NCBI RefSeq assembly: GCF_002750855.1 | Contig: NZ_NWUC01000004.1 | Coordinates: 1-64,000 of the forward strand | Source of the DNA: Neopararhizobium haloflavum | GTDB lineage: Bacteria > Pseudomonadota > Alphaproteobacteria > Rhizobiales > Rhizobiaceae | Length of the DNA stretch: 64,000 nt | Direction: 5' to 3' | Shown: positions 52,064 through 58,020 of the stretch, one piece after another | Position numbering within the stretch: position 1 is the stretch's first letter | Layout: each line of letters opens with the position of its first letter | Notes under the pieces: model-generated | The model's database searches: none | The model's input: only the letters and a program-made list of their open reading frames with translations | Told to the model about the DNA's origin: nothing | Made by a program: the position numbers and the translations under genes

Positions 52064-52870
52064 CTATTTCTTTGACAGCGCCTTTGCCTGATCGAGCCAA
52101 CCGTCCCGATCGATCCGGCCCTTGAACTGCAGATAATCCTCGACCCAGGCAATCTCGGCCTCGCTCCAGCCGGCAACCTGCTCGAAGGACCAGACGCCAA
52201 TCCGGTTCAGCACCTCTTCCAGCTTCGGGCCGATGCCGGAAATCTGCTTCAGATCGTCCGGACTTTCGGGCCTGGCCATCTTGCGTGGCGCGCTGGGGGC
52301 AGACACGACCGAGGAAGACTTCGCCGCCGGCTCCGGTGTCCGCTTTACAGGTTCGGCCGCCTTCGTGACCGTCTTGCGCACGGGAGCCGTCGCGGCTGCG
52401 CTGACCGTCGCGACAACCTCGGCGGCCTCCTTCAACGCGCTCTTGACCGCCGTGCCCGCGTCTTCGGCATCTGAACGCATGTCCGCCGACACGTCCTTCG
52501 CGGCGTCTATCGTGCGAGCGACGGTCTGCTCCGTTTCATCACGGGCGGCCTTTCCTGCCGCGACAACCCATTCGCCGTCCCAGAAGCGCAGGCCCGCCTC
52601 GAAATCAACCGGCGTGACCGGCATGCCAAGCTTGCGCGAGGCTTCAAGAGCGCCCTGCATCGACCCCATCATCAGGCCCATCATCTGGCCGGCAGCACCA
52701 AATCCGAGCGCCGTCGCCGCGGCGGCCGCAGCCGTTGGATGGGACATCAAGGGCGACAGCGGCATGGTCGGCATGGACTTGGCCATCCCCTTCATCCAGT
52801 CCTCTATCTCGCTCATCGGCATGGTCATTGCTTCAGCTGTCATTTCAAAGGGACTCGCTTGTTGCGACAT
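52064..52870 (-). CDS. Helix-hairpin-helix protein in the nuo operon
   Basis: The 268-residue protein starts MSQQASPFEMTAEAMTMPMS and has a methionine-rich N-terminus that may touch the membrane, a long alanine/lysine-rich central linker that resembles a coiled coil, and a C-terminal helix-hairpin-helix domain: LKQISGIGPKLEEVLNRIGV, then WVEDYLQFKGRIDRDGWL. The same domain is fused to the end of NuoE. It lies between nuoF and nuoG, where rhizobial nuo operons carry an extra gene. It is probably an accessory or assembly factor of complex I; no known function. Confidence 0.85.
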   Translation of the reverse strand: MSQQASPFEMTAEAMTMPMSEIEDWMKGMAKSMPTMPLSPLMSHPTAAAAAATALGFGAAGQMMGLMMGSMQGALEASRKLGMPVTPVDFEAGLRFWDGEWVVAAGKAARDETEQTVARTIDAAKDVSADMRSDAEDAGTAVKSALKEAAEVVATVSAAATAPVRKTVTKAAEPVKRTPEPAAKSSSVVSAPSAPRKMARPESPDDLKQISGIGPKLEEVLNRIGVWSFEQVAGWSEAEIAWVEDYLQFKGRIDRDGWLDQAKALSKK

Positions 52871-52968
52871 TGGAGAGCTCCTTGCTGTCGTTCGTGCGGT
52901 TCTCATTCCCTTCGTCGACGTTTCCTCGCTTGATGGCCGCTTGATCGCGGCCCTTGTTCGATTCCGGC

Positions 52969-54276
52969 CTATTCGGCGGCCTGCATGACGGGGCTTCTGC
53001 CCGTGTCGGCGCGATGGGTATAGGCGTCGATCCGCGCTTCGATCTCCGGGCGGAAATGACGGATCAAGCCCTGGATCGGCCATGCCGCAGCGTCGCCGAG
53101 GGCGCAGATCGTGTGGCCTTCCACCTGCTTCGTCACGTCGAAGAGCATGTCGATCTCGCGCTTCTGCGCGCGGCCTTCCACCATGCGTTCCATGACGCGC
53201 CACATCCAGCCGGTACCCTCCCGGCATGGCGTGCACTGGCCGCAGCTTTCGTGCTTGTAGAACGCGGCCAGCCGGGCGATCGCCTTGATGATGTCGGTCG
53301 ACTTGTCCATGACGATGATCGCCGCCGTGCCCAAACCGGATTTCAGGTCGCGAAGGCTGTCGAAATCCATCGGGCAATCGGCGATCTGGTCGGCAGGCAC
53401 GAGCGGGACGGAAGACCCGCCAGGGATGACCGCCATGAGGTTGTCCCAGCCGCCGCGAATGCCGCCGCAATGACGGTCGATCAGCTCGCGGAACGGGATC
53501 GACATCGCCTCTTCCACGGTGCAGGGCTGATTGACATGCCCGGACACGCAAAACAGCTTGGTGCCGGTGTTGTTCTCACGCCCGATGCCAGCGAACCAGG
53601 CGCCCCCGCGCCGCAGGATCGTCGGAGCAACGGCAATCGATTCGACGTTATTGACCGTTGTCGGGCAACCATAGAGACCGACATTGGCTGGGAAAGGCGG
53701 CTTGAGGCGAGGTTGTCCCTTCTTGCCTTCGAGGCTTTCCAGAAGAGCTGTCTCCTCACCGCAGATATAGGCGCCGGCGCCATGATGCAGATAGACGTCG
53801 AAATCCCAGCCACACTTGTTGTTGCGGCCCAGCAGTCCCGCCTCGTAGCATTCGTCGATCGCTGCCTGCAGCGCCTCGCGCTCTCGCATGTATTCGCCGC
53901 GCAGATAGATGTAGGCGACATGGGCTCCCATGGCGCAGCCGGCGATCACGCAGCCTTCGATCAAAGTGTGCGGATCGTTGCGCATGATATCCCGGTCCTT
54001 GCAGGTTCCGGGTTCCGATTCGTCCGCATTGACGACGAGATAATGCGGACGCCCATCACTTTCCTTGGGCATGAACGACCATTTAAGGCCAGTGGGGAAA
54101 CCGGCGCCACCACGACCGCGAAGGCCGGACGCCTTCATCTCGGAGATGATCCAATCGCGACCCTTGTCGATGAGCCCTTTCGTTCCATCCCAATGGCCAC
54201 GCTTCATCGCGCCCTTGAGAGACTTGTCCCTCAGCCCATAGATGTTGGTGAAGATGCGGTCTTTGTCTGCAAGCAT
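52969..54276 (-). CDS. nuoF: NADH-quinone oxidoreductase subunit F
   Basis: The 435-residue subunit binds NADH and FMN. The FMN/NAD site is [20 protein letters not shown] and [19 protein letters not shown]; the [4Fe-4S] ligands are in [18 protein letters not shown] plus a later cysteine ([16 protein letters not shown]). Full length. It is flanked by nuoE and the HhH gene. Confidence 0.97.
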
Positions 54277-54291
54277 CGATCTATCCTGCCT

Positions 54292-55455
54292 TTACCGCGG
54301 CTTCTTGCCGAAGACACGAATGTATTCGGCCTCGCCGCCCTTGGCGAGCGCCTTGGCCTGCTTGATCCAGTCGTCGCGCTCGATGCGGCCGGAAAAACGA
54401 AGGTGGTCGTCCACCCATTCGCGTTCCGCCTTCTTCCAAGCGGCGATCTGGTCGTAGCTCCAGATGCCCAACTCGTTGAGCTTGGTCTCTATCTTCGGTC
54501 CGATGCCCGAAATCAGCTTGAGATCGTCCGGCTGGTCGGGACGATCGGTGCCGGAAGGCTGGCCCTTCGGCGCTGTGGAAGGACGAGCCCTGGAGTGCCC
54601 GCTCACCGCGGGGTCAGGAACCTTCTTGGAAGCGGACCTGGCGTCTTCCGGCTCTCCGCCGGATTCGTCGTCCGTCTTGGATGGTCCGCCCGGACCCTTC
54701 GCGTCCTTCGGCTCAGCCAGTTGTGGATCTGCCTCCGGCGGGGTTTTTGGAAGGGGCTTTCCGACCTGGGTCGGAGCCTGGGCTTCATCGCCAGTGCCCC
54801 TGGCCCGCGACGAAGGCTTGCGTGCCTTCCCGCCTTCGATGGCCTCATCGTCGGTGAGGGTCGTCAACCCGCCTGACGGGGCCGACAGATGCCGCCCGTT
54901 TTGCGGACCGGGCGGAACCGCCGCTCCCTCGCCCGCCTCGAACTGATCGATGATCTCTTCCAGCCGCTCGGCTGTCAGGTCTTCATAGGCATCCTTGAAG
55001 ATCATCACCATGGGTGCGTTCACGCAGGCGCCCTGACACTCCACTTCTTCCCAGGACAGCGTACCTTCCGGATTGGTCTGGAACGGCGCGGCATTGATCT
55101 TGCGCTTGCACAGATCGATCAGCTCTTCCGAACCGCGCAGCATGCACGGGGTCGTGCCGCAGACCTGGATATGGGCGCGCGTGCCGACCGGCTTCAGCTG
55201 AAACTGGGTGTAGAACGTCGCCACCTCGAGTGCGCGTATATACGGCATGCCGAGCATGTCGGCGATATTCTCGATCGCCGCTCGCGTAACCCAGCCCTCC
55301 TGCTCCTGCGCACGCATCAGCAATGGGATGACGGCTGAGGCCTGGCGGTCCTCGGGATACTTGCGAATGGTCTGTTCCGCCCAGCGCATGTTCTCATCGC
55401 TGAACGCGAAGGCGGCGGGCTGGACTGTGTCTTCTGCAAGACGGCGGACGGACAT
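54292..55455 (-). CDS. nuoE: NADH-quinone oxidoreductase subunit E with long C-terminal extension
   Basis: The first ~165 of 387 residues are the thioredoxin-like [2Fe-2S] domain ([28 protein letters not shown]). The remainder is an extra, disordered, Pro/Gly/Lys-rich region and then a helix-hairpin-helix domain ([39 protein letters not shown]) homologous to that of the gene at 52064. Such fused tails are seen in rhizobial NuoE. It may tether the HhH protein or bind another factor (inference). Confidence 0.95.
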
Positions 55456-55467
55456 GCGGATAAGCCT

Positions 55468-55740
55468 CTATTGATCGATGGCGCCGCAGCGCGAATTCGT
55501 CAGGGTCACGAACTCACAGGCATACGCCTGCGCATCCTTCTGGAGAAAGACGACGAACTTGTTGCCCGAGGGCGACGACGCCTTGATTTCAAAGCCGCGC
55601 TGCAAGAGCGCGCCCATTGTTGCATTGCCGATCGGTTCCTCGCTGCTGGAGCCACCGGTGACGGGGGTCTGGGCCATGGCCGGCAAGGCCATCAGCAGGG
55701 TGAGCATCCCACAAGCTGCCTGCAGAGCCGCCGTCCTCAC
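55468..55740 (-). CDS. Small secreted protein between nuoD and nuoE
   Basis: The 90-residue product begins with a signal peptide ([14 protein letters not shown], cleaved after AMA) and a short mature domain with two cysteines ([17 protein letters not shown]), probably disulfide-linked. The GTG at 55738-55740 overlaps the nuoD stop as GTGA, so it is coupled to nuoD translation. It is a periplasmic protein inside an inner-membrane complex operon, and I cannot assign a function. Confidence 0.75.
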
Positions 55741-56927
55741 CGGTCCACCTCGCCAAAAACGATGTCGAGCGAGCCGAGGATCGCCGACACGTCGGCCAGT
55801 TGGTGACCCCGGCAGATGAAGTCCATGGCCTGCAGATGCGCGTAGCCCGGCGCCCGGATCTTGCAGCGATAGGGACGATTGCTTCCGTCCGATACGAGAT
55901 AGACGCCGAACTCCCCTTTCGGGGCTTCCACTGCCGCGTAGACCTCGCCTTCGGGCACGCGATAGCCTTCCGTATAGAGCTTGAAGTGGTGGATGAGCGC
56001 TTCCATCGAACGCTTCATCTCACCACGCTTCGGAGCGACGATCTTGCCGTCTCGGGAGGAGACTGGCCCGATTTTGTCCTTTCCGAGCAAGCGATCGACG
56101 CACTGGCGCATGATGTGGGCCGACTGGCGCATCTCTTCCATCCGGATGAGATAGCGGTCGTAGCAGTCGCCGTTCTTGCCGATCGGAATCTCGAAATCGA
56201 AATCTGAGTAACACTCGTAGGGCTGCGAGCGGCGAAGGTCCCATGCCGCACCCGAGCCGCGCACCATGACGCCGGAAAAGCCCCAGGCCCAGCATTCTTC
56301 AAGCGAGACGACGCCGATGTCGACGTTGCGCTGCTTGAAGATTCGATTGTCCGTCAGCAGTGCATCGATGTCGTCGACGGTCTTGAGGAACGGATCGATC
56401 CAGTTGCCGATGTCCTCGACCAGCTGGTGCGGCAAGTCCTGGTGTACGCCGCCAGGGCGCACAAAGGCTGCGTGCATGCGCGAACCGGACGCGCGCTCAT
56501 AGAAGACCATGAGCTTCTCGCGCTCTTCGAAGCCCCAGAGCGGCGGCGTCAGGGCGCCGACGTCCATCGCCTGCGTCGTCACATTCAGCAGATGCGACAG
56601 GATCCGGCCGATCTCCGAATAGAGCACGCGAATGAGCTGGCCGCGCACTGGCACTTCGACATCGGAAAGCCGCTCGACGGCCAGGGCGAAGGCATGCTCC
56701 TGGTTCATCGGCGCGACGTAGTCGAGGCGATCGAAATAGGGGATCGCCTGAGTATAGGTCTTGTGCTCGATCAGCTTTTCGGTGCCGCGATGCAAAAGGC
56801 CGATATGCGGATCGACACGCTCGACGATTTCCCCGTCAAGCTCCAGAACCAGACGCAAAACACCATGCGCTGCAGGATGTTGCGGTCCGAAGTTGATGTT
56901 GAAGTTGCGAACGTTGTGTTCGGTCAT
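55737..56927 (-). CDS. nuoD: NADH-quinone oxidoreductase subunit D
   Basis: The 396-residue 49-kDa subunit is part of the quinone-binding site. It begins [40 protein letters not shown] is the signature, with [20 protein letters not shown] and a C-terminal FGEVDR. I chose the ATG at 56927, which has GGAG 6 bases upstream. Upstream of that start are the heptamer repeats of the inserted cassette, separating it from nuoC. Confidence 0.97.
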
Positions 56928-56945
56928 GGCCTGCTCCGCAAGGAG

Positions 56946-56973
56946 GTGAATAGTGAATGGTGAATAGTGAATA
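56946..56973 (+). repeat. Left heptamer array, four tandem copies
   Basis: Four uninterrupted copies of a 7-base unit read GTGAATA, GTGAATG, GTGAATA and GTGAATA. It lies 19 bases upstream of the nuoD ATG (in operon direction) and is followed by the nuoD ribosome-binding site. Confidence 0.9.
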
Positions 56974-56991
56974 GAGGCGAAGAAAGCTCCA

Positions 56992-57339
56992 TCACCCTTC
57001 CCCCTTGCGTTCGAGCGAAACAATGAAAGCGCGAAGCATCTTGCCAAGCGCTTCGTATCGTAGCGCCAGTGCGCCGGTGGCGGCGGAATCTGCAAATCCC
57101 AAACGTTCAGAGAGAACGGTCTGCGTCTCCAGTTCCTTCAGCGACCCCTGTGCGATACGCAGATACTGAATGAACGAGCGCCGCTGACCGCGTCCAAAGC
57201 CTTCGGCAATGTTGGACGGGATGGAAACGGCGGCTCGGCGCATCTGTGCCGTCAAACCATAGACCTCGTCCCGCGGAAAGCGGTCGGTCATCCCATAAAT
57301 GTTGACAGCAAGCTCCATCGAATCCTTCCAGACCTTCAA
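56992..57339 (-). CDS. Four-helix-bundle protein (23S rRNA intervening-sequence protein family)
   Basis: The product of 115 residues from the first canonical start (TTG 57339) contains the signature [15 protein letters not shown] (residues 38-51), and amphipathic helices [20 protein letters not shown] and [20 protein letters not shown], the four-helix bundle of the bIVP/Avd type. Family members usually begin with ...YRDLKVWQ, and here in-frame codons upstream of the TTG encode INDYRDL. So translation may start earlier, at an ATT (57369) preceded by GGGAAGG, giving about 125 residues. The family binds nucleic acids or partner proteins; no exact function known. Confidence 0.88.
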
Positions 57340-57384
57340 GTCCCGATAATCGTTTATCGGATCAACAATCTGCTTGGCCTTCCC

Positions 57385-57405
57385 TATTCACCATTCACCA
57401 TTCAC
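57385..57405 (-). repeat. Right heptamer array, three tandem copies
   Basis: On the minus strand three copies read GTGAATG, GTGAATG and GTGAATA in operon order, starting on the base after the nuoC stop codon (57406-57408). They are the inverted counterpart of the left array. Confidence 0.9.
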
Positions 57406-58020
57406 TCAACTTTTCTTCTCATCTCCCGGCAACACATAGTCCGTGCCTTCCCAAGGAGAGAGAAAATCGAAATCGCGGTATTCCTGGCGCAGGTCCACCG
57501 GATCGTAGACGACGCGCTTCATCTCGTCGTCGTAGCGTACCTCGACGAACCCCGTCAGAGGGAAATCCTTGCGCAGCGGATGACCCTCGAATCCGTAGTC
57601 GGTGAGAATGCGGCGCAGGTCGGGATGCCCAGTGAAGAGAATGCCGTAAAGGTCATAGGCTTCACGCTCGAACCAGTCCGCGCCGGGGAAGACACCACAG
57701 ACCGACGGGATCGGCTCGTCCTCGCCGGCGGCAACCTTGATGCGGATCCTGCTGTTCTGGCGCGGCGACAGCAGATGATAGACGACGTCGAAGCGCTGGG
57801 CGCGGCCCGGCCAGTCCACCCCGCAGATATCGATTATGTTGACGAACTGGCATTGCGGATCGTCGCGCAGAAACGTCAAGAGCGGAACGATCGAAGTCGC
57901 ACTTGCGGTCACCGTCAATTCGCCGAAGGTGATGCCGGCGCTGTCGATCAGATCGCCCTTCTCTTCCGTAATATAGGCTGAAAGATCCCTCAGCCCGTCA
58001 TTCAAATGATCCATAACCAC
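57406..58020 (-). CDS. nuoC: NADH-quinone oxidoreductase subunit C
   Basis: The 204-residue 30-kDa subunit carries [40 protein letters not shown] and [20 protein letters not shown], the family motif. It starts with GTG at 58020 (an ATG at 58014 is also possible). Its C-terminal LPGDEKKS is immediately followed by the inserted cassette. 72 bases separate it from nuoB. Confidence 0.96.

Follow-up and report, generated by a model that had tools for sequence, protein, structure and literature searches.

The window examined in this study, a stretch of 64,000 nucleotides from Neopararhizobium haloflavum, contains a small cassette between nuoC and nuoD (Table 1). In the direction of the operon, the nuoC stop codon (57406-57408, minus strand) is followed by three repeat units, a single S23 (four-helix-bundle) gene, four complementary units, a trailer containing GGAG, and the nuoD ATG. 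An earlier note on this DNA had described inverted GTGAATR arrays around one gene, inserted at an operon junction; both features were found as described, with neighboring genes that match Complex1_30kDa and Complex1_49kDa, and the arms, for which 22-24 bp of pairing had been claimed, pair over 26 nt at 92% or over 23 nt at 96%. The comparison of base composition proposed in the note placed the cassette (54.1% G+C) below nuoC (58.4%) and nuoD (60.6%), as well as below the window as a whole (62.3%). Within the 4.17-Mb genome, GTGAATRGTGAATR is unique to the cassette (five overlapping matches, compared to 0 for a reversed control pattern), PF05635 occurs as a single copy at nuoC|nuoD, and a scan with the array pattern identified no gene-less mini-elements. 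No recombinase motif was seen in the cassette by eye. The predicted fold of a 486-nt mRNA stretch across the cassette has the arms paired, with z = -4.24 against 100 shuffles.

Table 1. Features of the nuoC|nuoD locus in the window.
Feature	Coordinates	Strand	Remarks
nuoC, upstream host gene	57406..58020	-	PF00329 (Complex1_30kDa)
Whole cassette (both arms and loop with S23 gene, between nuoC and nuoD)	56946..57405	-	Absent in 3/3 genus mates
5' arm (mRNA sense), three GTGAATR units, first base directly after nuoC stop	57385..57405	-
Probable 5' gene extension with conserved YRDL motif; no ATG/GTG/TTG inside	57340..57375	-	Possible non-canonical start
S23 / four-helix-bundle gene, ORF from first canonical start (TTG)	56992..57339	-	PF05635 domain 57031-57345
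3' arm (mRNA sense), four complementary units (+ strand = GTGAATR)	56946..56973	-
Trailer, 3' arm to nuoD ATG, with nuoD ribosome-binding region GCGGAGC	56928..56945	-
nuoD, downstream host gene	55737..56927	-	PF00346 (Complex1_49kDa); start set by comparison with relatives

The sole gene of the cassette matches PF05635 (E = 9.6e-35), a large family that has been described from fragmented 23S rRNA and has no assigned function. Its conserved N-terminal YRDL motif is encoded before the first canonical start; therefore, translation may truly begin at a non-canonical codon. No ATG, GTG or TTG precedes YRDL in 25 of the 133 S23 genes studied in the taxonomic family, including that of the window (56992-57384), and ATT, ATC or ACG starts are possible for these 25. 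The S23 protein is under purifying selection (median dN/dS 0.094, 17 pairs), and no catalytic motif is known in it. An AlphaFold2 model has four helices (mean pLDDT 96.4) and matches 2gsc and 2rld, with a weaker match to Avd (4dwl); the modeled protein folds like Xcc0516 and the Avd protein of diversity-generating retroelements (DGRs). Its TM score of about 0.8, at 11-13% identity, with Avd and DGR ribonucleoprotein chains would be in keeping with retromobility, in which S23 and a reverse transcriptase would together act on an RNA of the element, in the manner of the structurally related Avd. However, no PF00078 (RVT_1) match was identified in the N. haloflavum genome, which rules against retromobility and leaves it highly improbable.

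Two further observations concern the neighborhood of the cassette. A possible further operon insert is found between nuoD and nuoE, where a 90-aa ORF (55468-55740) has a signal-like start. The ORF taken as nuoE (54292-55455) is prolonged at its C-terminus by a long segment, and the helix-hairpin-helix-like stretch that closes this segment resembles the end of the ORF at 52064-53551 (by eye).

Arms and Host Junctions of S23 Cassettes

PF05635 was identified in 116 of the 395 genomes of the taxonomic family and was absent from the other 279. Of about 147 listed matches, 133 loci were studied, those left out being mostly fragments. To score the arms, the 5' flank was locally aligned to the reverse-complemented 3' flank, and stretches 300 nt further out served as a control. 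The median score was 24.5, compared to 11 in the offset stretches (maximum 16), and 125 of 132 loci had complementary flanks scoring above their own 20 shuffles each. With no threshold applied, the best period was 7 or 8 in 130 of 132 5' flanks and 128 of 133 3' flanks, compared to 25 of 263 controls. Units were called in 124 of 128 family cassettes (95 heptamers and 29 octamers), with about four per arm (medians 4.0 and 4.1). The unit varies between lineages, yet it agrees between the two arms of one cassette; among 65 nuoC|nuoD cassettes, own arms had a median score of 22, compared to 12.25 for arms swapped from elements with different units, and scored above the mean swap in 62 cassettes and above the best of 12 swaps in 40. 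This co-variation may be due either to selection or to correction of the inverted repeats at the DNA level. At one locus (L200), about 65 nt are directly repeated on both sides of the S23 gene (by eye).

The host junctions of 172 loci (133 from the family and 39 from outside it) were named from Pfam/NCBIfam matches, using one example of each. The most commonly observed junction was nuoC|nuoD (70 loci), followed by circularly permuted ATP-grasp|Alpha-E and glutamine-synthetase-like|FAD oxidoreductase (27 loci each), then acyl-CoA dehydrogenase|hydroxyisobutyrate-dehydrogenase-like, gmd|fcl, and cysD|cysN (5 loci each), with single cases including nuoB|nuoC (L208), accB|accC (L201), and murB|ddl (L168). 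Stop codons in all three frames within a 45-nt window were found in the 5' arm region of 96 of the 133 family cassettes and in the 3' arm region of only one. At two loci (L171 and L177), the downstream protein seemingly has an N-terminal extension encoded in frame by the 3' arm, while at two others (L181 and L187) gltX follows the cassette without an obvious ATG start past the arm (all by eye); a tRNA synthetase domain was found in the downstream gene of L181. According to a simple ORF caller, both neighbors are co-directional at 63 of 86 contig and plasmid loci and 28 of 39 phylum-search loci; its count of 54 of 133 in the G+C-rich family was misled by antisense ORFs, and orientation there was judged from the named junctions instead.

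Outside the family, a phylum search identified PF05635 in 62 of 398 genomes; 22 of 38 scored loci exceeded their own shuffles, and the best period was 7 in 33 of 39 5' flanks. A broad contig scan spanning many phyla and one archaeal group listed 80 of 582 loci, to which 6 plasmid loci were added. Among these listed contig and plasmid loci, 67 of 85 scored exceeded their own shuffles (median 21, compared to 10), and the best period of the 5' flank was 7 in 64 of 84, compared to 10 of 163 controls. The repeat-armed S23 design thus recurs in many phyla, often between operon genes. GTGAATR arrays flank S23 genes in many genomes, as the mobile-element idea of the earlier note required, and they do so along with other 7/8-mer arrays. 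On two cyanobacterial plasmids (L212 and L213), cas6 and cas4 flank a four helix bundle gene beside long 7-mer arrays, which is in line with the 18 such genes in cas loci mentioned in passages of PMC3936711. Similarly, a table in PMC5524665 lists a four helix bundle gene of Flavobacterium columnare flanked by the genes for guanylate kinase and a nicotinate-nucleotide adenylyltransferase. Carriage by phages was considered and rejected; no match was found among 50,697 phage records, and the 32 relatives found among 2.9 million IMG/VR contigs (22 of 32 with arms above shuffles) are possibly host DNA.

Cassette History and Gene-less Arrays

All three genus mates lack PF05635, and in each of them the nuoD ATG follows the nuoC stop after just three bases; at the protein level, NuoC of these genus mates is 82% identical to that of the window. 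The empty sites that the earlier note suggested looking for in close relatives are therefore present, and the shared presence of gene and arrays in every close relative, which it had named as counting against a mobile element, was not found. More broadly, 27 of 30 nuoC loci inspected gave a junction, five of them holding an S23 cassette (G000, G014, G016, G006, and G028, the last from another family) with differing units, while some others were occupied by a different gene. The small gene found at nuoC|nuoD in L014, L022, and L023, which we take from its appearance to encode a GFA-like protein, indicates that this junction is a general insertion spot. GGAG-bearing trailers like that at 56928-56945 were seen by eye at many occupied nuoC|nuoD junctions. 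At the nuoC|nuoD junctions compared and at the two mini-element sites described below (ketosynthase|oxidoreductase and L343), no target-site duplication was seen by eye, and no active jump was observed.

On a weakly resolved tree of 128 S23 proteins, 13 junction changes were counted, compared to a shuffled mean of 56.4; therefore, lineages are mostly site-faithful and movement between sites is rare. As read from this tree, S23 lineages appear to keep to one junction with some jumps, such as L122, a puuA-clade cassette with octamer arms located in the acyl-CoA dehydrogenase junction, which is elsewhere filled by heptamer cassettes. Unit length changed 3 times (26.2 when shuffled) and unit sequence 17 times (66.3 when shuffled), indicating that the gene and its arms travel together. 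They do not travel with their surroundings. The identity of S23 is barely correlated with that of NuoC (Spearman 0.10, 2080 pairs from 65 loci), and L100 and L113, which share 98.5% of NuoC and have flanks 88-100% identical per 50-nt window right to the cassette edge, have S23 proteins sharing 57.9% and different units. Six nuoC|nuoD pairs with similar flanks (windows 0.74-1.00) had cassette identities of 0.53-0.56, compared to 0.74-0.75 in two same-unit control pairs. In one genus, all seven genomes are occupied, and the six of them placed on the tree represent at least three S23 lineages. The presence of unrelated cassettes, differing in their repeats, within similar flanks indicates that cassettes were gained or replaced independently of their surroundings, as expected from the mobile-element claim of the note, and both the architecture of the cassette and its independent history are well supported. 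Replacement may also occur by short-tract homologous recombination.

There are several potential explanations for these patterns. An unlikely one is that the cassette is a host-beneficial regulatory device, kept by host selection, in which S23 binds the arms in the mRNA and tunes operon expression or processing. A strand-specific test compared G-U mismatches, which are RNA-compatible, to A-C mismatches in the arms, and the excess of G-U in family arms (184 compared to 111) would fit such a device, as would the purifying selection on S23, the position of the cassette inside an operon, and the paired arms of the predicted fold. However, the bias is opposite outside the family (23 compared to 44, and 80 compared to 108), and there is no general RNA-strand bias overall (287 G-U and 263 A-C, p = 0.33), so RNA-level selection on the arms is not claimed. 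In addition, the cassette is missing from 279 of 395 genomes, with all three genus mates among them, unrelated cassettes replace one another at a single junction, and cassettes occur in unrelated operons.

Arrays of the same units also occur without a gene. Three-unit GTGAATR arrays were found in 48 of the 395 family genomes, of which 37 contain PF05635 and 11 do not, compared to 79 of the 347 array-less genomes with PF05635 (Fisher p = 2.8e-13); GGGCAGTA arrays were found in 31 of 395, of which 26 contain PF05635 (Fisher p = 7.2e-11). Classification of 60 array loci, the best 30 listed for each of the two units, identified 7 with S23, 23 gene-less inverted pairs (loops of 38-118 nt), and 30 solo arrays, a class consisting partly of pairs whose degenerate partner was missed by the strict pattern. 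The GTGAATR or GGGCAGTA arm came first in 24 of 24 inverted pairs, and for 4 of the 53 loci without S23, the same junction is occupied by an S23 cassette elsewhere. At the ketosynthase|oxidoreductase junction, 15 congeners included 7 repeat-armed inserts (two GTGAATA and five GCGAATA-like), 6 short junctions, which count as empty sites, and 2 other inserts (by eye); several occupied alleles use the TGA within the first unit as the stop codon of the upstream gene. At the site of another mini-element (L343), none of four relatives had a clean empty site, all having other inserts.

The fixed inward polarity in 24 of 24 pairs, the gene-less copies at many other sites, and the regular 7/8-mer enclosure of PF05635 across phyla would be left unexplained if nuoC|nuoD and similar junctions were merely permissive hot spots, where repeats expand through slippage and the correction of inverted repeats, and where cassettes without mobility of their own are exchanged by homologous recombination in flanking genes. 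This explanation is improbable, although it would account for the other genes at nuoC|nuoD (L014, L022, and L023), the site-faithful S23 lineages, and the variation in repeat number.

Interpretation and Relation to Known Systems

The locus is probably a single representative of a widespread family of very small mobile elements, similar to 23S rRNA intervening sequences (IVSs) and specialized for operon junctions, a family that is apparently undescribed. In each cassette, an S23 (PF05635) gene is enclosed by two inverted arrays built from a 7- or 8-nt unit, and the whole lies directly after the stop codon of the upstream gene and directly before the ribosome-binding region of the next, a position presumably tolerated because both host frames stay intact. 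The arms would pair, either in mRNA or in extruded or single-stranded DNA, and serve as the ends recognized by the mobility process, with S23, the sole encoded protein, acting on them and host functions cutting and joining. A stem formed in the mRNA would leave the gene in a loop and could serve as a substrate of RNase III. A bolder proposal, which is possible but which we hold only tentatively, is that S23 is the mobility factor of a pan-bacterial mobile DNA without a known recombinase, its pentameric four-helix-bundle ring reading tandem 7-nt (or 8-nt) units, roughly one per subunit, at the inverted ends and driving insertion at the stop codons of operon genes; 23S IVSs would then be members that landed in rRNA, and the heptamer and octamer VNTRs of many bacteria their non-autonomous offspring.

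If the usual home of PF05635 is a repeat-armed cassette in operon junctions, a context is available for testing the function of the family. PF05635 would also be connected with heptameric repeats that have been without an explanation for years, an origin would be suggested for the octamer VNTRs used in Brucella typing, and mobile DNA would be seen to enter essential operons (Complex I, sulfate activation, fatty-acid synthesis) with reading frames unbroken.

The resemblance to a 23S IVS proposed in the earlier note holds for the S23-family protein and the stem-closing terminal inverted repeats but not for the location, since the cassette lies in an operon mRNA and seven short 23S motifs were found in no locus scanned. 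According to passages of PMC4990558, the Coxiella burnetii 23S IVS (428-444 nt) likewise has terminal inverted repeats (28-bp stem) that close a loop containing an S23 ORF, is called selfish, and has a sporadic distribution, as do the cassettes. Unlike the 23S IVS, the cassettes have tandem 7/8-mers as ends and gene-less derivatives, and RNase III cleavage, demonstrated for the IVS, is putative for the cassette stem. Avd is similar in modeled fold, and homology with S23 is proposed in passages of PMC10053308; however, identity is 11-13%, and the cassette contains neither a reverse transcriptase nor a template repeat. REPINs/RAYT, as described in PMC3116915, share short inverted repeat pairs, a small loop, dispersal, and a linked protein gene, whereas the cassette units are tandem heptamers or octamers and the only gene, PF05635, encodes a four-helix bundle and no Y1 (RAYT) tyrosine transposase.

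Close parallels to the arms are the heptameric repeats of Xanthomonas (GGGAATC), Nostoc (GGGGAYT), and Beggiatoaceae (TAACTGA), which are intergenic, tandem, often near the upstream ORF, and in some cases inverted pairs; the searched passages of the sources (PMC4692102, PMC4679880) make no mention of S23/four-helix genes. No published link of such genes to heptamer arrays was found in passages of PMC8700078, PMC11637426, and PMC10910872 or elsewhere in the literature searched, preprints and most subscription papers being outside the search. Finally, the Brucella HOOF-print octamer AGGGCAGT, known from passages of PMC7589603 as a typing VNTR with eight typing loci, is a rotated form of the GGGCAGTA arms of the puuA-site clade, from which we infer that this octamer may be linked to S23 cassettes.
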